From contig CAJBVW010000316.1 of NCBI GenBank assembly GCA_903959175.1, positions 1-38,063 of the forward strand: a stretch of DNA of 38,063 bases, in the 5' to 3' direction. Both the position numbers and the translations under genes were made by a program. Numbering within the stretch: the first letter of the stretch is position 1; every line of letters begins with the position of its first letter. Of this stretch, positions 14,569-37,414 are shown in pieces. Source of the stretch: an uncultured Pseudomonadota bacterium (GTDB lineage Bacteria; Myxococcota_A; UBA796; SXON01). Below the pieces are notes generated by a model. The model ran no database searches. It had not been told where the DNA came from and worked only from the letters and a program-made list of their open reading frames with translations.

Positions 14569-14595
14569 GGGGTCAGACCCCATCATTTATCACCT
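14569..14595 (+). repeat. REP-like element, copy A (left end of RAYT unit)
   Basis: The palindrome GGGGTCAGACCCC is followed by the tail ATCATTTATCACCT. It overlaps the stop codon of the transposase gene and is inverted relative to copies B and C, so A and B bound the RAYT gene as terminal inverted repeats. Confidence 0.85.
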
Positions 14596-15502
14596 ACGCC
14601 GCGGTGCCCCCGCGGAGGTCGTCCATCCACTGGGCGAGCTCGGGATCCCCGGCCGCGAGCGCGGGAAAACGGCCGAGCCACAGGCTGACCTGCTGCTCGG
14701 TGGCGCCGAGCGCCCGCGCGGTGGCGCGCTGGGGGAGGCCGTTCGCGATCGCGAGCCACCACGCTGCAAGCCAGCGGCGGCGGTTGTCGCCACGGCCGGG
14801 GCGCGCCGAGCGGAGCATGTCGACCTCGACGCCGCAGGTGCGCGCGACGAGGGCGAGCAACGCGTCCGGGTCCGTGCCGAGCGCGGCGGCGGACGCGGGG
14901 CGGAGGTCGGACACCGAGGGCGCCCACAGGGCGAGCGGATCGAAGCCGGCGGGCGCGGGGCTGCGGCCGGTCTGGACGGCGTGGAGGGCCTCGCGGTAGC
15001 CCGCGACGCCGCCGTGCGCGGCGAGCAGATCGTCGGTGGTGAGCCAGTCGGGGCGTCGGGACGCACCCGTGTATGCCGCGTGGCTGGTCCAGTAGGCGTC
15101 GTCTTCATCGGTGACGAGGTGGGCGCGCACGGGGTTGAGGTGCAGGTAGAGGAGGAGGTGGCTCCAATACGCGTCAGTCTCGACGACGCGGTTGCGGAAG
15201 CGGCCCTTGAAGAGCGGGCCGTCCCACGTCTCGAGCTCGTTGAGGAGCCGCACGTACTCGCCGGTCAGGTACTGCATGGCGCGGCTGAGGTTGCCGCGGG
15301 GCGTCTCGAGCAGGAGGTGGAAGTGGTTCGGCATCAGCGCGTAGGCGTGGACGATGACGCCGAAGCGCGCCGGGAGCGAGGCGACGACCGAGAGGAAGAG
15401 GGCGCAGGAGGCGTCATTCGTGAAGATCGGGGCGTGGCGGGCGCCGCGGTTCATGACGTGGTGACGAGCGCCGGGGAAGTCGAGGCGGAGGGGGCGGGCC
15501 AT
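14594..15502 (-). CDS. REP-associated tyrosine transposase (RAYT, Y1_Tnp/IS200-like)
   Basis: A 302-residue HUH-family transposase. N-terminal family pattern PLRLDFPGARHHVMNRG; HUH metal motif PNHFHLLLE (H60, H62); catalytic Tyr in MQYLTGEYVRLLN (Y83); then GPLFKGRFRN and LLLYLHLNPVRA, all typical of RAYTs. The C-terminal ~110 residues (LLALVARTCGVEVDMLR..., ATARALGATEQQVSLWLG) look like a DnaA-C/HTH DNA-binding domain, as in the longer RAYT subgroup. RAYTs are domesticated single-copy enzymes that nick and join REP hairpins. Here the gene is bounded by inverted copies of a REP-like repeat and has a third copy next to it, which fits. All catalytic residues are present, so it may be active. 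The SD is weak. Confidence 0.93.
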   Translation of the reverse strand: MARPLRLDFPGARHHVMNRGARHAPIFTNDASCALFLSVVASLPARFGVIVHAYALMPNHFHLLLETPRGNLSRAMQYLTGEYVRLLNELETWDGPLFKGRFRNRVVETDAYWSHLLLYLHLNPVRAHLVTDEDDAYWTSHAAYTGASRRPDWLTTDDLLAAHGGVAGYREALHAVQTGRSPAPAGFDPLALWAPSVSDLRPASAAALGTDPDALLALVARTCGVEVDMLRSARPGRGDNRRRWLAAWWLAIANGLPQRATARALGATEQQVSLWLGRFPALAAGDPELAQWMDDLRGGTAA

Positions 15503-20163: not shown

Positions 20164-20937
20164 CTACGCGTCGACCCCGACGCGCCCTTCCTTCATGTCG
20201 GCGTTCATCTGCGCGGAGTACCAGCCGCGCACCTTCTGGAGGTGCTGCTCCTCCTCGCGCGCCGCCTGCTCGAAGCGGGCCACGATGTCCTCGTGGCCGA
20301 GGCCCCGCGCCATCTCGATGAGCATCTTCCAGCCGTCGTTGTCGGCGAGCTCGACCACGAGGATCGCGTGGAGGCAGGCCGAGCGGGAGCTGCGCGGGTC
20401 GGTGAGGATCTGCAGGATGCCCATCGTCTCGACCGACACCGCGTCGGCAGCGGGGGTCTGCACGGTGGGGTCCGCGCCCAGGGTCTCGATCGTGTTGCGG
20501 AGCAGCTCGAAGTGCCGGTGCTCCTCCTCGCGGATGGTCCGGAGTTCCTGCGGCGTGGGGCCGAGCGTCTTGTCCTGGAGCACGCTGATGTGGGAGAGGA
20601 GCGCGTCGTAGAGGCGCACGCCGGTGCGCTCGAACGCGAGCCGCTCGCCGAGGCGGTCGAGGAACACATTGGGGCGCTGGTTCTGCGCGAGCGCGACCGC
20701 CGCCTTGGCCGCGCCCTTGAGCGTGGTCGGCGGGGGCATCGAGCCGATGCCGGTGCGCTCCGCGATGTACTGCTCGCGCACCGTCGTCATGCCCGCGCCG
20801 CTCCCCGCCGTGCTCGGGACGCCGTCGCGCGCGCCCTGGAGCATCTGCTCGCCGTCCACCGGCGACATGCCCATGCCCGTCCGGTTCATCACCGCGACCT
20901 TGTCCTTGAGCCCGCCGTTCGGCTTGTCGTGCGCCAT
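20164..20937 (-). CDS. Ferritin-like domain protein (single bundle)
   Basis: A 257-residue soluble protein. The N-terminal ~75 residues are Gly/Met-rich and poorly ordered, with recurrent RTG(M/I)G motifs (NRTGMGMSP, ERTGIGSMPPP). The rest forms a four-helix diiron pattern: FERTGVRLYDAL (first Glu), IREEEHRHFELL (ExxH), HAILVVELADNDGWKML (Glu), and AAREEEQHLQKVRGW (ExxH). This set of two Glu and two ExxH ligands is typical of ferritin/rubrerythrin-like diiron proteins. No rubredoxin domain is present, so oxidase, storage or peroxidase function cannot be chosen. Its ATG overlaps the upstream gene's stop by one base (TGATG at 20937), so the two are co-translated and may form one complex. Confidence 0.82.
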   Translation of the reverse strand: MAHDKPNGGLKDKVAVMNRTGMGMSPVDGEQMLQGARDGVPSTAGSGAGMTTVREQYIAERTGIGSMPPPTTLKGAAKAAVALAQNQRPNVFLDRLGERLAFERTGVRLYDALLSHISVLQDKTLGPTPQELRTIREEEHRHFELLRNTIETLGADPTVQTPAADAVSVETMGILQILTDPRSSRSACLHAILVVELADNDGWKMLIEMARGLGHEDIVARFEQAAREEEQHLQKVRGWYSAQMNADMKEGRVGVDA

Positions 20938-30032: not shown

Positions 30033-30422
30033 CTACCCGAGGAGCCCGCGCACCGTCTCCAGGAACGGCACGTCCGCCGGCGCCCACTCCACGGTGCCGA
30101 GGGCGGCCGGCGCGAGCCAGCGCAGCTCCGCGTGGTCCAGCGCCGCGGGCTCCCCGTCGACCAGCGTGCAGGCGAGCGCCACGAGCCGGATGGTGCCGTG
30201 CGCGTAGGCGTGCTCGCTCACGCCCACCGCTGCCCCGACGCGCACGGTGACGCCGAGCTCCTCGCGCAGCTCGCGCACGAGCGCCGTCGCGTCGTCCTCG
30301 CCGTGCTCCAGCTTGCCTCCGGGGAACTCCCACAGCCCCGCCTCGCGCGTCCCGGCGGCGCGCTTCGCCGCGAGCACGCGCCCGTCGCGGATGAGGACGC
30401 CGGCTACGACGCGGATGACCAT
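30033..30422 (-). CDS. mutT: NUDIX hydrolase, MutT-like (8-oxo-dGTP diphosphatase type)
   Basis: A 129-residue stand-alone NUDIX protein: MVIRVVAGVLIRDGRVLAAKRA, then LWEFPGGKLEHGEDDATALVRELREELGV, which contains a complete Nudix box G-x5-E-x7-REL-x-EE-L-G-V. The LWEFPGGK and C-terminal HAELRWLAPAALGTVEWAPAD patterns are those of MutT/CTP-pyrophosphohydrolase enzymes, which remove oxidised or non-canonical nucleoside triphosphates. Length matches MutT. GGAGG lies about 7 bases upstream of the ATG at 30422. The exact nucleotide substrate cannot be read from sequence. It is divergent from the crotonase gene. Confidence 0.92.
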   Translation of the reverse strand: MVIRVVAGVLIRDGRVLAAKRAAGTREAGLWEFPGGKLEHGEDDATALVRELREELGVTVRVGAAVGVSEHAYAHGTIRLVALACTLVDGEPAALDHAELRWLAPAALGTVEWAPADVPFLETVRGLLG

Positions 30423-30552
30423 CCCTGCCTCCGGGCCCCGGAGTACCACGGGGACGGCGTCCGCGGGGGCATGCCGAGGGGGCCGCGCGCTTCCTTCGCG
30501 CGGTTCGCGCTCGGGATCACGACGCGCGGGCCGCTGCGCGATAGCGGAACCC

Positions 30553-31323
30553 ATGGCGTCCGTCACCGTCGAGTACACCACCCCCGAAGGTACCCCCACC
30601 GTCGCCGTGCTCCGGCTGGACGACGGCAAGGCCAACGCCTTCAACCCCGCCTCCCTGGCCGCGATCTCCGCCGCGCTCGACGAGATCGACGCGAGCGGCG
30701 CCCACGCCCTGGTCATCGCGGGCCGCGCCGGGTTCTTCTCGGGCGGCCTCGACCTGAAGGCGCTCCCGCACCTGCCGACCGTCGAGAAGCGCGCTGTGCT
30801 CTCGCTCTTCGGGGAGGTGCTCCTCCGCGTCTTCACCTCGCGCGTACCGACGGTCGCCGCGGTCACCGGCCACGCCATCGCCGGCGGCGCGCTGCTCGCC
30901 CTCGCGACGGACGTGCGCTTCGGCGCCGACCTCCCCGCCCGCTTCGGCGTCACCGAGGTCGCCATCGGCCTCCCGGTCCCGAGCTTCGGCCTGCTCCTCG
31001 CCCGCGCGGCGCTGGCGCCCCCGGCCCTCGTCGAGATCGCGCTGCACGCCCGCGTGCTCACCCTCCGCGAGGCCCACGGCCGCGGCGTCTTCTACGGGCT
31101 CTACCCCGAGGACGCCGTGGTGGACGCCGCCACCGCCTACGCGTCCGACCTCGCGCGCCTCCACGGCCCCGCCTACGCCACCACCAAGGGCCTCCTCTGG
31201 GACGCCGAGCTCGCCCGCATCCGCGGCGGCCTCGCGGACGAGGTCGTGCGGTTCATCGAGCTGTTCGAGTCCCGCTTCCCCGTCGCCGCCGTGGTGGCGC
31301 CCGAGGGCTCCGGCCCGGGATGA
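30553..31323 (+). CDS. Enoyl-CoA hydratase/isomerase (crotonase) family protein
   Basis: A 256-residue crotonase-fold protein acting on acyl-CoA thioesters. The oxyanion-hole segments are GRAGFFSGGLDLKAL and TGHAIAGGALLALATD. A Glu occurs at both usual catalytic positions (TEVAIGLPVPSF and ALVEIALHARVLTLREA), so hydratase activity is possible. However, the usual GLIPGAGG loop is replaced by GLPVPSFG, so the reaction is uncertain. Length is normal. The frame is open upstream, antisense to the NUDIX gene, and the ATG at 30553 is where crotonase similarity begins. The stop overlaps the ATG of the following membrane-protein gene (ATGA at 31320), so the two are co-expressed although no shared pathway is evident. 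Confidence 0.92.
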   Translation: MASVTVEYTTPEGTPTVAVLRLDDGKANAFNPASLAAISAALDEIDASGAHALVIAGRAGFFSGGLDLKALPHLPTVEKRAVLSLFGEVLLRVFTSRVPTVAAVTGHAIAGGALLALATDVRFGADLPARFGVTEVAIGLPVPSFGLLLARAALAPPALVEIALHARVLTLREAHGRGVFYGLYPEDAVVDAATAYASDLARLHGPAYATTKGLLWDAELARIRGGLADEVVRFIELFESRFPVAAVVAPEGSGPG

Positions 31324-33494
31324 TCGACGGGTTCGCGCACGAGCCCCCGGGTCGGCGCCGCCTCCTCCAGCTCCTCACGTGGACGTGGTGCCTGCCCACC
31401 ACGCTCGTCGGGCTCGTGGCGGGGCTGTTCACCGTGGGCGTGCTCGGCGGCCGCGCGACGCCCTTCCGCGGCGCGACCGTCGTGCGTTCGCCGCGCCTCC
31501 GCACCCTCGGCGCCGTCTGCCTCGGCCCGGTCATCCTCGCCCCGGACACCGCCACCCCCGAGCTCGTCGCCCACGAGTGGGGGCACTTCCGGCAGCACCT
31601 CCGCCTCGGGCCGGCCTACCTCCTCGTCGTCGGCGTCCCGAGCCTCACCCACGCGGTCTGGCACCGGCTCGGCGGCGGCGGCTTCCCCGACTACTTCCAC
31701 TTCTGGACCGAGGCCTGGGCCGACCACCTCGGCGGCGTCTACGCGCGCCACGCCCACCTCCACCCGCGGTGGACCGGCTACGCGCTCGGCCCCGTCCTCA
31801 CCCTCGTGTGCGGCGCCCTCACCCTCCGCGCCTTCGGCCACGTCCTCGCCTTCCCGTTCACGGACGCGGACGCCCTCGTCGACGTCGCGTGGGCCCGCTT
31901 CCCCCTCCGCGACCAGCTCCTCGTGCCGCTCACCGGCGGCCTCGGCGGCGACAACGCTAACTTCTGGCGGCCCGCCGCGATGGTCCAGTTCTGGGCGTTG
32001 CGCCACCTCTTCGGGGAGGTGCCTGCCGGGTGGCACGCGTGGAGCCTCCTCCTCCACGTGGTCGCGTCGGTGCTCGCGGGGCTCGTGGTCGAGGCGCTCG
32101 GGGCGGCTTCTCGGGGCGGCGCCCCCACCGCCCGGGATCGCGCCGTGGCCCTCCTCGCGGCGGCGCTCTTCGCCGCGCACCCCCTCGCCGAGGAGATCGT
32201 CCCGGCCACCGCCCGCAACCTCGACCTCCTGCTCGCCGTCGGCTCCTTCGGCGCGCTCCTCGCGTTGCTGCGCGCGCTCACGACGCACGGCCCCGCGCAA
32301 CGCTTGTGGCGTCTCGTGTTCTTCGCCTCCGCGGCCCTCGCCCTCGGCGCGAAGGAGGCCGGTATCCTCCTCCTCCCCACCTGCGTCGCGTGGATCGTGC
32401 TCCTCGACGGCCGGCCCCTCCGCGAGGGCTGGCCCCTCCGGCTCCGCGCCATGCTCCGCCACCTCGGCCCCTTCGCCGCCTTCTCCCTGGTGTTCCTCGC
32501 TGTGCGCGCGCGTGTGCTCCACGGCGTCGGCGGCTACCACGACGCCGACGCCCTCGCCGACACCAACCTCCTCGGCTTCGCCCTCCAGCGCGCCTTCGTC
32601 GAGCCGCTGTTCTCCTCGCTCTCCGGCCGCCTCGCCCCCCTCGCTGGCGCCCCGGGCGTCGTCTTCGCGTTCGCGCTCTGGGGCGTGCTCCTCGCGACGT
32701 TGCGGCGGGACGCACGGTTAGTTGGCATGTTGGCTGCGGTCTATCTCCCGTGGATCTTCCTCCTCGGCGTCACCGGTACCTACAGCCGGCGCGTCCTCTA
32801 CGTGCCGTCGATCGCCATGGCCGCGGTGGTGGCGCTCGCGGGGGTGTCGGCGGTCTTCTCCTGGGGCGGGGCTCCGCCCCGCAACGCCCGGATGCACGCG
32901 GGTTCGGGCCCCGGGGCCGTCGCCGGCCGTGTCGCGCTCTCCATCGTGACCGGGTTGCTGTTCGGTGCGTGGCTGCACGGGACGCCCGCGCTGCGGCGCT
33001 ACACCGACTGGGACGCCGTGGGCCGCGCCGACGCCACGTTCCTCCGTCCCGAGGTGTGGGCGCCGATCCCGGCCAACACGACCGTGTGGCTCGTGGACCG
33101 CCCCGCGCGCGTCGACCTCGACCCGCGCCGCTACCGCCTCTGGTCCAAGCGCAAGAGCCTCAACAACGCCGCCACCTCCTACGCGATCGAGGCGTGGGTG
33201 GACGAGCACGTGCCGCGCGGCCTCTCGGTGCGGTCGCTCACGTCGATCCTGCCGGAGGGGCCGCCCGAGGCCTTCCCCGCCGTCGTGGCGTCCGCCGCGG
33301 GCGTCGTCCGCGTGGCGCGCCCGCCCGTCGCGCGCACGGTGAACGCCGGGAAGGACGTGCTCGTGGCCGAGGAGCCCGGCGGCATCACGCTCAGCGTCGC
33401 GCCCGGCGCGGCGCCGCAGTGGGCGGTCATCTGGGACCCGCGCGGGGCCGCGGCGGTCGCGGTCGGCGCGCCGCTCGGGGAAGGCCGGCCGTAG
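31320..33494 (+). CDS. Membrane protein: HEWGH zincin-like domain fused to GT-C glycosyltransferase-like domain
   Basis: A 724-residue protein. Residues ~20-150 resemble a family with HExGHxxQ-type motif: LGAVCLGPVILAPD, VAHEWGHFRQHLRLGPAYLLVVGVPSL (H85, E86, H89) and FHFWTEAWADHLGGV, where E131 or D135 could complete a metal site. From ~155 the protein looks like a GT-C enzyme of the TMTC/PMT kind: a first TM, the acidic loop FTDADALVDVAW, NFWRPAAMVQFWALRHLFG, GWHAWSLLLHVV and AALFAAHPLAEEIVPATARNLDLL, then about eight more TM helices and a soluble C-terminal tail (~560-724). GT-C enzymes transfer sugars from lipid-linked donors. A palindromic low-complexity patch (SWGGAPPRN, 32863-32890) sits between TM helices. 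The ATGA overlap couples it to the crotonase. Confidence 0.78.
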   Translation: MIDGFAHEPPGRRRLLQLLTWTWCLPTTLVGLVAGLFTVGVLGGRATPFRGATVVRSPRLRTLGAVCLGPVILAPDTATPELVAHEWGHFRQHLRLGPAYLLVVGVPSLTHAVWHRLGGGGFPDYFHFWTEAWADHLGGVYARHAHLHPRWTGYALGPVLTLVCGALTLRAFGHVLAFPFTDADALVDVAWARFPLRDQLLVPLTGGLGGDNANFWRPAAMVQFWALRHLFGEVPAGWHAWSLLLHVVASVLAGLVVEALGAASRGGAPTARDRAVALLAAALFAAHPLAEEIVPATARNLDLLLAVGSFGALLALLRALTTHGPAQRLWRLVFFASAALALGAKEAGILLLPTCVAWIVLLDGRPLREGWPLRLRAMLRHLGPFAAFSLVFLAVRARVLHGVGGYHDADALADTNLLGFALQRAFVEPLFSSLSGRLAPLAGAPGVVFAFALWGVLLATLRRDARLVGMLAAVYLPWIFLLGVTGTYSRRVLYVPSIAMAAVVALAGVSAVFSWGGAPPRNARMHAGSGPGAVAGRVALSIVTGLLFGAWLHGTPALRRYTDWDAVGRADATFLRPEVWAPIPANTTVWLVDRPARVDLDPRRYRLWSKRKSLNNAATSYAIEAWVDEHVPRGLSVRSLTSILPEGPPEAFPAVVASAAGVVRVARPPVARTVNAGKDVLVAEEPGGITLSVAPGAAPQWAVIWDPRGAAAVAVGAPLGEGRP
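32863..32889 (+). repeat. Palindromic G/C element inside the HEWGH/GT-C gene
   Basis: GGGGCGG-GGCT-CCGCCCC followed by GCAACGCCC. The stem-loop plus the identical GCAACGCCC tail matches the arrangement inserted in metH at 19620-19649. It encodes a Pro/Gly-rich inter-helix loop in frame. Confidence 0.5.
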
Positions 33495-34479: not shown

Positions 34480-35454
34480 CTACCCCGCGAGCACCGCCGC
34501 CTTCACCGCCGCATGCACTTCTGAGGTGTGCGCCGTCCCGCCCATGTCGAGCGTGTGTACGCCCGCCTGGAGCGCCGCCACGCACGCCGCGCGCAGCCGC
34601 GCGGAGGCCTCGGTCTCGCCGAGGTGGCGGAGGAGGTCGACCGCCATCCCGAGCATCGGGTAGGGGTTCGCGCCGTCGGGCCCGACCACCTCGACGCTGG
34701 TGCCGTGCGGGTTCTCGAACACGACGGCGCCGGGCGCGTAGCAGGTGCCGCACGCGACGGTCACGCCGCCGGCCATGCCCGCGGCGACGTCGCTCACGAT
34801 GTCGCCGAAGAGGTTGCCGCACAACAGCACGTCAAAATCGCTCGGGCGGCGCACGATGCGCATGCACAGGGCGTCCACGATGATGTCGTCGTGCTGGACG
34901 GAGGGGTAGCGCGCCGCCACTTCCTTGCTGACGGCGAGGAACATGCCGTCCGCCTTCTTCAGGATGTTGGCCTTGTGCACCGTCGTGACGCGCTTGCGGT
35001 TGTTGCGGACGGCGTACTCGAACGCGAAGGTCGAGATGCGCTCGCAGGCGGCGCGGGTCGTCACCTTGACGGACTCGAACACGCCCTCCGTGCTCTCGTG
35101 CTCGAAGCCGGAGTAGATGTCCTCGCTCGCCTCGCGGACGATCACCATGTCGGTGCCGGCCGCGCGCGCGGGCAGGCCCGGCAGGTGCGAGACGTGGCGC
35201 ACGATCGCGTGCACGCCGAGCTTCTTGCGGAACTGCAGCGTCATCGGCATCTTGCCGCCGGCTGCCACGGACACGATCTTGCCCTTGAGCGCCACGCCCG
35301 TGCGCTTCACGGAGGCGACCATCGCGTCGAGATCGGCGCCGGTGTGCAGGTCCCAGCGGATGTCGACGCCGGTGGCGGCGACGATGTCCCGCATGACGTC
35401 CGCGACCTGGAGGCCGCAGCCGTCACCGGGGATGAGGGTCACTTCGTACGACAT
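34480..35454 (-). CDS. Isocitrate/isopropylmalate dehydrogenase family protein, second paralogue
   Basis: A 324-residue beta-decarboxylating dehydrogenase-fold protein: VTLIPGDGCGLQVADVM, VREASEDIYSGFEHE, VTTVHKANILKKADGMF (catalytic Lys), NLFGDIVSDVAAGMAGG (metal Asp pair). It diverges from its upstream neighbour in two places. The substrate Arg region reads LQFRKKLGVHAIVRHV rather than LRQSLDLYVGLRPV, and the NAD loop reads HGTSVEVVGPDGANP rather than HGTAPDIAGKGVANP. It could therefore be a non-catalytic or regulatory partner, as in mitochondrial NAD-IDH, or an enzyme with another hydroxyacid substrate. The start is 8 bp after the neighbour's stop, so the two are co-transcribed. Confidence 0.85.
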   Translation of the reverse strand: MSYEVTLIPGDGCGLQVADVMRDIVAATGVDIRWDLHTGADLDAMVASVKRTGVALKGKIVSVAAGGKMPMTLQFRKKLGVHAIVRHVSHLPGLPARAAGTDMVIVREASEDIYSGFEHESTEGVFESVKVTTRAACERISTFAFEYAVRNNRKRVTTVHKANILKKADGMFLAVSKEVAARYPSVQHDDIIVDALCMRIVRRPSDFDVLLCGNLFGDIVSDVAAGMAGGVTVACGTCYAPGAVVFENPHGTSVEVVGPDGANPYPMLGMAVDLLRHLGETEASARLRAACVAALQAGVHTLDMGGTAHTSEVHAAVKAAVLAG

Positions 35455-35462
35455 GGCAGCCC

Positions 35463-36461
35463 TCACAACGAGTCGATGATGGCGTCGGTGAACTCGGCGG
35501 TGCCGGCCTTGCCGCCGAGGTCCCCGGTGATGTGCTTGCCGGCGGCGAGCACGTCCCACACGGCGCGCTCGATGCGGCTCGCGATCTTCCACTCGCCCAC
35601 GTGCTCGAGGAGCATGAGCCCCGAGAGCAGCACGGCGAGGGGGTTCGCGACGCCCTTGCCGGCGATGTCCGGGGCGGTGCCGTGGACGGCCTCGAACACG
35701 GCGGCCTTGGAGCCGATGTTCGCGCCCGGCACGACGCCGAGCCCGCCCGCCAGCCCGGCGCAGAGGTCGGAGAGGATGTCGCCGTAGAGGTTCTGCAGCA
35801 GCAGCACGTCGAAGCGCGAGGGGTCGAGCGGCAGCAGCAGCGAGAGGGTGTCGACGCCGATGTCGAGCTGCTCGATGAACGGGTACTCGACGCCCACGTT
35901 GCGGAAGGCCCCGAGGAACGCGCCGTCCGCCAGCGGGTTGATGGGCGCCTTGTGGCAGCAGTGGATCGTGCGGCGGCCGCGGTAGCGCATGTACTCGAAG
36001 GCCCAGCGGCTGATGCGCTCGCCGGCCTTCACGGTGGAGGTCTTGAGCGACACCACCGTGCCGGGGGTGACCTCGTGCTCGATGCCGGCGTACAGGTCCT
36101 CGGTGTTCTCGCGGAACAACACGAGGTCCAGGCCGGGCCACGCGCCGGGGATGTTCGGGAGCGTCTTGACCGGGCGGAGGCCGACGTAGAGGTCGAGCGA
36201 CTGCCGGAGCGTCACGTTCGCCGAGCGGAACCCGCCGCCCTTCGGCGTCATCAGCGGGCCCTTCAGCCCGAGGCGGTTGTTCCGGATGCTCTGGAGGGTC
36301 ACCTCCGGCATCGGGACGCCGTACTGCTCCATCGCCTCGCCGCCAGCGGGGGCGCGCTCCCATTCGATCGGGGCGCCGGCGGCGGCGAGGATGCGGCAGG
36401 TCGCGCCGGTCACCTCGGGGCCGATCCCGTCGCCCTCGAGCAGCGTCACGCGGTACTTCAT
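35463..36461 (-). CDS. NAD-dependent isocitrate dehydrogenase-like (beta-decarboxylating dehydrogenase)
   Basis: A 332-residue enzyme: VTLLEGDGIGPEVTGA, LGLKGPLMTPKGGGFRSANVTLRQSLDLYVGLRPVKTLP, LFRENTEDLYAGIEHEV, IHCCHKAPINPLADG, NLYGDILSDLCAGLAGGLGVVPGANIG, and the NAD loop HGTAPDIAGKGVANP. All substrate Arg, the catalytic Tyr/Lys and the metal Asp are present. The NVTLRQSLDLYVGLRPVKTLP block favours a mitochondrial-type NAD-isocitrate dehydrogenase (isocitrate to 2-oxoglutarate) over 3-isopropylmalate dehydrogenase, but homoisocitrate or another substrate is possible. It is the first gene of a two-gene unit with the divergent paralogue. TTAGAT about 26 bases upstream of the ATG may be its -10 box. 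Confidence 0.9.
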   Translation of the reverse strand: MKYRVTLLEGDGIGPEVTGATCRILAAAGAPIEWERAPAGGEAMEQYGVPMPEVTLQSIRNNRLGLKGPLMTPKGGGFRSANVTLRQSLDLYVGLRPVKTLPNIPGAWPGLDLVLFRENTEDLYAGIEHEVTPGTVVSLKTSTVKAGERISRWAFEYMRYRGRRTIHCCHKAPINPLADGAFLGAFRNVGVEYPFIEQLDIGVDTLSLLLPLDPSRFDVLLLQNLYGDILSDLCAGLAGGLGVVPGANIGSKAAVFEAVHGTAPDIAGKGVANPLAVLLSGLMLLEHVGEWKIASRIERAVWDVLAAGKHITGDLGGKAGTAEFTDAIIDSL

Positions 36462-36520
36462 GGCGGGCCTCGCAAGGCCGCCGGATCTAACGCCTCCGAC
36501 CTCCCGCGGCGACCCGATCC

Positions 36521-37414
36521 CTACGCGAGCGTCCGCGGTCGGATGCCGAACGGCGAGGGCGTCGGGCGCGTGCGGTCCATGGCCAGGAGCCGCCGGATAC
36601 GGTCCTCCGTGCGGGGGTGCGTGCGGAACAGCGTCGCGATGCCCCGCCCGGTGAGCGGGCTCACGATGAACAGGTGCGCCGTCGACGGCTGCGCGTTCGT
36701 GGGACGGATCTCGTTCCCGCGCTCGAGCTGCTGGAGCGCCTCCGCGAGGGGCCGGCCGTCGCCCACCAGCTCGGCCCCGTAGGCGTCCGCCGCGTACTCG
36801 CGCGACCGGCTGATCGCGAGCTGGATGATCGTCGCCGCGAGGGGCGCCACGATCAGCGTCGCGAGGAGCCCAATCGGGTTGCCGCCGCGCTCGTTCTCGC
36901 CGCGCCCGCCGCCGAAGATCAGCCCCCACTGCGCCATGTTCGCGAGCATCGAGATCGCGCCCGCCATCGTCGCGGCGATCGTCGAGATGAGGATGTCCCC
37001 GTTCTTCACGTGCCCGAGCTCGTGCGCGAGCACGCCCCGGAGCTGGTCCGACGTGAGGATCTCGAGGATCCCCGCCGTCACCGCCACCGCCGCGTGCTCC
37101 GGATTCCGCCCGGTCGCAAAAGCGTTCGCGCCCGTCTGCGGCAGGATGTAGACCTTCGGCATCGGCAGCTTCGCCCGCTGGGAAAGCTCCGTGACCATCT
37201 CCCAGATCTCCGGCGCGTCGGACGGTCCGATCTCGCGCGCCCCGTACATGCGGAGCAGCACCTTGTCGGAGAACCAGTACGCGCCGAAGTTCATGGCGAC
37301 GGCGACCCCGAAGGCGAGGATCATCCCCTGGTTCCCGCCGAGCAGGCGCCCGGCGACGACCAGCACGCCGGTGAGGAGGCCCAGGAGCAGGGCGGTCTTG
37401 AGGTGGTTCAGCAT
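36521..37414 (-). CDS. htpX: Membrane metalloprotease HtpX
   Basis: A 297-residue M48B protease for quality control of inner-membrane proteins. N-terminal TM pair (LKTALLLGLLTGVLVVAGRLL, MILAFGVAVAMNFGAYWFS), the family phrase PMPKVYILPQTGANAFATGRNPEHAAVAVTAGIL, zinc site LAHELGHVKNGD, two further TM helices (STIAATMAGAISMLANMAQ, IGLLATLIVAPLAATIIQLA) and the third ligand in SREYAADAYGAEL. The C-terminus keeps STAHLFIVSPLTGRG-x5-FRTHPRTEDRI. Length and features are canonical. Upstream AAGGGG serves as SD. TATCCA at the -12 position resembles the leaderless boxes elsewhere but lacks the final T. Confidence 0.97.
   Translation of the reverse strand: MLNHLKTALLLGLLTGVLVVAGRLLGGNQGMILAFGVAVAMNFGAYWFSDKVLLRMYGAREIGPSDAPEIWEMVTELSQRAKLPMPKVYILPQTGANAFATGRNPEHAAVAVTAGILEILTSDQLRGVLAHELGHVKNGDILISTIAATMAGAISMLANMAQWGLIFGGGRGENERGGNPIGLLATLIVAPLAATIIQLAISRSREYAADAYGAELVGDGRPLAEALQQLERGNEIRPTNAQPSTAHLFIVSPLTGRGIATLFRTHPRTEDRIRRLLAMDRTRPTPSPFGIRPRTLA

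Follow-up and report, generated by a model that had tools for sequence, protein, structure and literature searches.

A predicted zincin-like domain fused to a GT-C-like membrane protein, known to date from a single genus of Myxococcota_A

What would join a putative metal site of the peptidase type, in a single reading frame, to a polytopic membrane protein that resembles a glycosyltransferase? The question is raised by one gene on contig CAJBVW010000316.1 (GenBank assembly GCA_903959175.1) of an uncultured Pseudomonadota bacterium, which GTDB places in Myxococcota_A (UBA796; SXON01). We refer to the whole stretch of DNA that was analysed, 38,063 nucleotides long, as the window. Judged from its sequence, the gene genuinely fuses two modules, each of a known kind, and to date the fusion has been found in a single genus. 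Its features, in window coordinates, are as follows.

31320..33494, + strand: the fusion gene, 724 amino acids plus stop, with an ATG start and no internal stop; the same open reading frame (ORF) is present in two congeners
31320..31772, + strand: N-terminal HExGH zincin-like domain, residues 1-151, predicted from an AlphaFold (AF2) model and two family alignments (A10 and A12)
31572..31586, + strand: HEWGH, residues 85-89, putative metal site and catalytic Glu; H, E, G and H are invariant in 66 aligned members
31707..31724, + strand: TEAWAD, residues 130-135, with E131 as putative third ligand; E131 and A134 are invariant in 66 members
31773..33491, + strand: C-terminal GT-C-like polytopic part, residues 152-724, assigned from profile links and hydropathy
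31860..31883, + strand: acidic first loop TDADALVD, residues 181-188, from conservation in a 12-row alignment (A8)
31959..31973, + strand: NFWRP, residues 214-218; N, F, R and P are invariant in 12 rows
32178..32198, + strand: HPLAEEI, residues 287-293; H, P and L are invariant in 12 rows

The initial annotation had described an HEWGH zincin-like domain fused to a membrane protein, and this description stands: the window has one intact 724-residue frame, and the fusion is present in all three genomes of the genus examined (G000, G007 and G008), at 62-70% identity depending on the segment. The motif positions it gave are also correct, HPLAEE at 287-292 together with I293 making up its H-P-x-x-E-E-I motif. 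Across the join (residues 130-180) the same open fusion, at 75-80% identity, is found on two other metagenome-assembled genome (MAG) contigs, which rules out an assembly join; the fusion is not such a join because it recurs, in the same neighbourhood, in all three genomes of the genus. Separate translation of the C-terminal part was considered and rejected, as the three fused genes offer no convincing start codon for it. Between residues 131 and 215 they have in-frame GTG codons only (from residue 162 on), zero ATG or TTG codons, and nothing that by eye resembles a ribosome-binding site upstream of the GTG codons.

Searches for the same fusion and for split versions found the fusion in close relatives and the halves separate elsewhere in the genomes searched. 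At the family level (22 genomes), a close C-terminal part without the N-terminal part is present in five genomes (G009, G012, G014, G015 and G017), and an N-terminal gene alone, at this closeness, in one (G010), which has a distant C-terminal relative on another contig. Wider draws covered 63 genomes of the order, 71 of the class and 377 of the phylum. The N-terminal profile matched 11 of the 63 and 11 of the 71 genomes, the three fused ones included, and a wider version matched 36 phylum genomes, at least one of them (G110) falsely. The C-terminal profile matched 116 phylum genomes at E 1e-5. Among the matches listed for the 377 genomes, compared by eye, no genome but the three congeners has both profiles on the same contig. 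A candidate second fusion in G110, a 561-residue frame, looks by eye like a repeat protein and was dismissed. Of the open-licence papers listed on protease-glycosyltransferase fusions, crAss metalloproteases and HExxHxxQ/DUF4157 proteins, none describes the fusion in its title or abstract opening.

The zincin-like character claimed for the N-terminal domain is supported by a confident AF2 model of residues 1-152, built from the 66-row alignment A12 (predicted local distance difference test (pLDDT) 91.4, predicted template modelling score (pTM) 0.85). Helices are predicted at residues 10-22, 25-40, 80-96, 99-117 and 129-137, and strands at 45-49, 52-56, 66-68 and 71-74. H85, E86 and H89 are not scattered, all three lying on the HExxH helix (80-96), and the conserved E131 lies on a later one (129-137). 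A second comparison, with VIA-align, covered 102 chains, of which 21 scored Z of at least 2, and 17 entries were listed. Fifteen of these entries, about nine proteins, are what we take from their titles to be HExxH-type zinc peptidases. At the top are BepA (Z 4.2, root-mean-square deviation (rmsd) 3.9, 107 aligned) and 3c37 (Z 3.8, rmsd 4.5, 109 aligned), with IrrE/PprI, BlaR1, M1 and others further down. The N-domain rows obtained with a full-length model agree (3c37 Z 4.5, PprI 3.4, BlaR1 3.0). In a viral structure library, matches at E<0.001 were an uncharacterised phage protein (6.5e-8), an unnamed protein (1.6e-7) and a crAss-like 'Vgr2b binding protein' (3.9e-4). The prediction points to a compact, probably zincin-like fold for this domain.

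Stand-alone copies of the domain were found in related bacteria, viral contigs and phage records. Overlapping searches of viral contigs returned 5 loci, 131 stretches (80 loci kept), 27 loci and 1 locus. A first query of the phage collection found no record; a second found 56, some of them one phage under two accessions, and 20 of these are listed individually (for example MT074136.1 and NC_055900.1; viral contigs L120-L226). Two queries of plasmids found no match. We took up 111 viral loci (L036 and L227 omitted as repeats) and discarded 10 for stops in the segment read, several of them merely past the gene end, and 12 as identical, leaving 89 distinct proteins. HExGH is present in 87 of the 89, and E-x-x-A-[DN] follows downstream in 86 of those 87. 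Alignment A12 combines the three fused domains with 63 of the 67 less similar viral proteins, leaving out L034 and L164 (without an intact HExGH), L197 and L223. Eleven positions are invariant in its 66 rows (W23, H85, E86, G88, H89, Q92, G97, S108, Y125, E131 and A134); in the partly overlapping 22-row alignment A10, H85, E86, G88, H89 and E131 are invariant in 22 of 22. Such conservation makes the motif more than a chance match. When eight viral members were compared with PHROGs, the best match was a 'protease' family (phrog_15610, E 0.007). On these searches the N-terminal part is a small family without a convincing Pfam, NCBIfam or PHROG model among the members tested. Two odd copies deserve mention. 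One viral copy (L034:3992-4405) is missing the segment with the second histidine (HEYGQ), possibly a natural loss of the metal site, and a distant HExGH-like sequence in G352 (L237) ends a 200-residue frame that by eye is perhaps the tip of an RHS-like protein.

Among known peptidase families, two come nearest. The signature HExxHxxQ...E is given for PVC-metallopeptidase in a passage of PMC3482391, and another in PMC8213781 describes the role of DUF4157 as still to be studied. The same signature is seen in our family, with H85, E86, H89, Q92 and E131 invariant in 66 rows, which makes it alike to eCIS_core/DUF4157/PVC-metallopeptidase (PF13699). In hhalign, A10 against 15 eCIS_core domains reaches 86% (E 5.5e-6) over 39 columns that take in the HExxHxxQ helix and the strand preceding it. 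However, the 66-row alignment reaches only 38%, and the Pfam model is touched by one of 22 members (E 0.0013) in one set and one of 66 (E 0.058) in the other, and not by the window protein. Our family also differs in that its members are small and have both a W-x-x-P helix of hydrophobic character and a stretch reading Q-S-x-x-L-G-P-L-Y-L. The M48 peptidases (HtpX, BepA, Q74D82) share the HExxH followed by E-x-x-A-D and provide the best structural rows (BepA and 3c37), but hhalign of A12 gives 15% over 17 columns, PF01435 does not match the window's N-terminal part, and no match to it is listed for the members of A10 or A12 scanned. The window itself has an HtpX-like gene (36521-37414) with the same order of motifs as the N-domain, and this gene does match PF01435. 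For scale, hhalign gives 83% for eCIS_core against M48, 19% for A12 against M78, and 0.2% for A12 against the C-terminal part (A8).

Seven phage regions with a copy of the gene were opened; all are Crassvirales, and the gene is annotated as a hypothetical protein. No gene of an injection system is annotated in these regions, and neither 'protease' nor 'peptidase' occurs in the main texts of PMC10172136 and PMC7886860. In three of the seven (L229, L232 and L233; cr125_1, cr55_1 and cr60_1; Suoliviridae) the gene immediately follows that of the portal and precedes that of the major head protein, a place at which a head-maturation protease could be sought; the next gene in cr55_1 is annotated 'peptidase'. 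The remaining four crAss-like regions have no portal gene adjoining it. As to origin, FastTree places the fused N-domain among viral sequences (support 0.78-0.91), and in a quick IQ-TREE tree of 64 rows (3 fused, 16 from the phylum, 45 viral) the row nearest to the fused ones is viral. The approximately unbiased (AU) test (p 0.643) does not reject a tree that unites the fused rows with 13 of the phylum's stand-alone genes. Relatives of the C-terminal part were not found in viral contigs.

The C-terminal part had been likened to GT-C enzymes of the PMT/TMTC type, and profile links support this. In GT-C glycosyltransferases the first extracytoplasmic loop carries an acidic residue, and there are eight or more transmembrane segments. 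The C-terminal part shows ten hydrophobic peaks, with a tail from about residue 553. In alignment A8 (12 rows, the most distant 30% identical to the window protein) D184, N-F-x-R-P, H-P-L, V-P-A, K-E and R-R are invariant, and T181 and D182 of the acidic loop are conserved at 90% or more. A profile of seven relatives reaches membrane proteins, mostly of 500-900 codons, across the phylum. This profile (A4) matches L078 (E 5.7e-27), L082 (1.2e-15) and L083 (1.9e-15), which in turn match PMT_2 (9e-4, 2.8e-3 and 1.4e-5, respectively); L082 matches GtrII better (5.7e-4) than PMT_2. With whole frames, PMT_2 is matched by L083 (3.2e-4) and L078 (2.6e-3), and L082 gives nothing up to 0.01. Aligned with eight PMT_2 hits from its own genome, A8 reaches 86% in hhalign (E 5.1e-6). 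The likeness to PMT_2/TMTC-like GT-C proteins (PF13231) comprises the acidic first loop, the F/Y-x-R-P, H-P and K-E pattern, which is that of TMTC proteins, the ten hydrophobic peaks, the links through L078, L082 and L083, and the hhalign score; unlike them, the window protein has no match to a GT-C family model and bears an N-terminal zincin-like domain. GT-C descent of the C-terminal part, linked to the PMT_2/TMTC-like group through intermediates, is supported by these comparisons.

Identity between congeners is 80-85% over residues 1-151, 67-71% over 152-570 and 52-59% in the tail. The ratio of nonsynonymous to synonymous substitution (dN/dS; NG86, three congeners) is 0.23-0.32 for residues 1-151 and 0.30-0.41 for 152-570, and these dN and dS values indicate purifying selection on both halves.

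On which side of the membrane does each half lie? GT-C proteins usually have their N-terminus inside. Net charges (K+R minus D+E) of the loops from the N-terminal side are +1 (1-23), +4 (43-79), -1 (118-154), -2 (178-242), +2 (262-275) and 0 (295-302), followed by +2 (322-334), +3 (368-380), -2 (404-440), +2 (460-466), +2 (486-494), +2 (514-533) and +3 (tail). Most of these fit a metal domain on the cytoplasmic face and an acidic loop outside. We give this topology moderate weight because some loops do not fit: 118-154 (-1) and 486-494 (+2) contradict it, and 368-380 fits only if 332-367 forms two helices. A metal site inside and a sugar-transfer site outside would argue against a simple coupling of processing and glycosylation.

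Considering all of this, we judge it probable, with a good deal of doubt left, that the gene encodes one inner-membrane protein made of two halves that are separate elsewhere, in which a zincin-like activity is tethered to a GT-C glycosyltransferase. The N-domain would be peptidase-like and zinc-dependent, anchored in the membrane and facing the cytoplasm, with H85, H89 and E131 binding the metal and E86 activating water. The C-terminal part would take a sugar from a polyprenyl-phosphate donor and transfer it at the periplasmic face, its first acidic loop serving as catalytic site. Joining the two would then most likely serve to tether a metal-dependent activity, possibly regulatory or processing, to the glycosyltransferase; that the protein cuts and glycosylates one and the same site is improbable. 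More specifically, and only tentatively, it may be a two-faced membrane enzyme, in which a cytoplasmic-face peptidase from an undescribed, minimal membrane zincin family of phages and bacteria governs a periplasmic-face GT-C enzyme in the same chain or is governed by it.

Several results count against a peptidase-like activity tethered to a glycosyltransferase. The window protein and its two halves have zero matches in Pfam and NCBIfam at E up to 1, and neither half has one in PHROGs; sequence searches of the PDB, queried with the window protein or with the N- and C-terminal alignments, also returned nothing relevant. Foldseek found no significant match of the N-domain in the PDB (E above 1), and the structural matches of the N-domain model in VIA-align are weak (Z at most 4.2). 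Diverged bacterial relatives vary at the metal site (HELSH, with no clear E-x-x-A-D, in L031; HECCH, HEHVH and HELAH in others). For the C-terminal part, the three PMT_2 matches all lie below the 26.1-bit cut-off, the remaining six of the nine relatives scanned match no GT-C family, the hhalign score of 86% comes without an unrelated polytopic control, and the full-length model is poor (mean pLDDT 46.9, the C-terminal part mostly under 50). Finally, in 18 regions around stand-alone N-terminal genes no ORF matches the C-terminal profile at E up to 10.

The possibility that the N-domain does no more than anchor the GT-C part, stabilise it or help it to fold, the two having been joined by chance and any peptidase activity being incidental or lost, has in its favour that the fusion is confined to one genus among the genomes searched and that the halves show no neighbourhood link elsewhere in the regions examined. 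The neighbours of the 18 stand-alone N-terminal genes, grouped into clusters, share little: in the 25 largest clusters nothing but the N-terminal gene is common to more than four of the 18 genomes, one cluster (ABC-transporter-like by eye) occurring in four genomes, which are two congener pairs, and two clusters in three. Against this possibility, all three fused proteins retain H85, E86, H89 and E131, and no other large stretch of the protein is as conserved as residues 1-151. We regard it as unlikely.

The initial annotation had proposed coupled processing and glycosylation of exported proteins, that is, a metal site and a glycosyltransferase acting in series on the same substrates. Retention of the fusion in three congeners, with conserved ligands and purifying selection on both halves, speaks for this idea, and the topology estimate that opposes it is weak, some loops being misfits. 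Most loop charges nevertheless put the N-domain in the cytoplasm, opposite the expected site of glycosylation, and relatives of the two halves never adjoin as separate genes in the 18 N-gene regions or in the five C-gene regions, where no N-profile match was found alongside. On balance the claim is not supported, and we consider such coupling quite improbable.

It is more doubtful still that the C-terminal part descends from GT-C enzymes but no longer transfers sugar, the polytopic protein serving instead, for example, as a carrier or receptor. It has no family model match of its own and reaches PMT_2 through weak intermediates, yet D184, N-F-x-R-P, H-P and K-E are invariant in 12 rows, as a retained active site predicts. 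An assembly or frame artefact joining two neighbouring genes is conceivable for one contig of a 611-contig genome (95.03% completeness, 3.46% contamination), but with the same open reading across the join on two other MAG contigs it is scarcely credible.

Among known systems, the exosortase/archaeosortase and rhombosortase sorting systems are alike in uniting a membrane protease function and glycan transfer in one system; they differ in using separate proteins and C-terminal sorting signals, and the protease of the fusion would be of another class. Through the fusion, a small family of membrane zincin-like proteins, recurrent in gut phages, gains a candidate partner. Should the metal site prove active, the fusion would offer a testable peptidase-like domain tethered to a lipid-sugar-dependent glycosyltransferase.

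Two further features adjoin the gene or lie within it.

30247..31323, + strand: ORF that contains the preceding gene, enoyl-CoA-hydratase-like by eye, whose true start lies within the ORF; it overlaps the fusion gene by ATGA
32863..32880, + strand: short palindromic element inside the C-terminal part, read through in frame, in a loop that varies between congeners

The start codon of the fusion gene overlaps the stop codon of the upstream gene as ATGA, and ATGA also stands at the start in both congeners. With these the window shares a neighbourhood from the gene at 20937 to the HtpX-like gene; the exception is a DUF1499-like gene, which only one of them was found to have (genes named by eye). 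The stand-alone C-terminal gene of G009 and G012 lies near ArsR/methyltransferase-like and MetH-like genes (by eye), whose relatives in the window are 11-16 kb away.

The palindromic element has three exact copies in its own genome, the window's included, and five with up to two mismatches (control, 0). In one congener (L023) this loop carries an insertion of greater length. An ORF at 14594-15502 of the window resembles by eye a transposase associated with repetitive extragenic palindromes (REP; Y1/IS200-like) and is possibly related to the palindromes. Downstream of the fusion gene, at 34480-36560, lie two tandem genes that by eye are isocitrate/isopropylmalate dehydrogenase-like, each of which matches the other's congener locus at about 38-40% identity.

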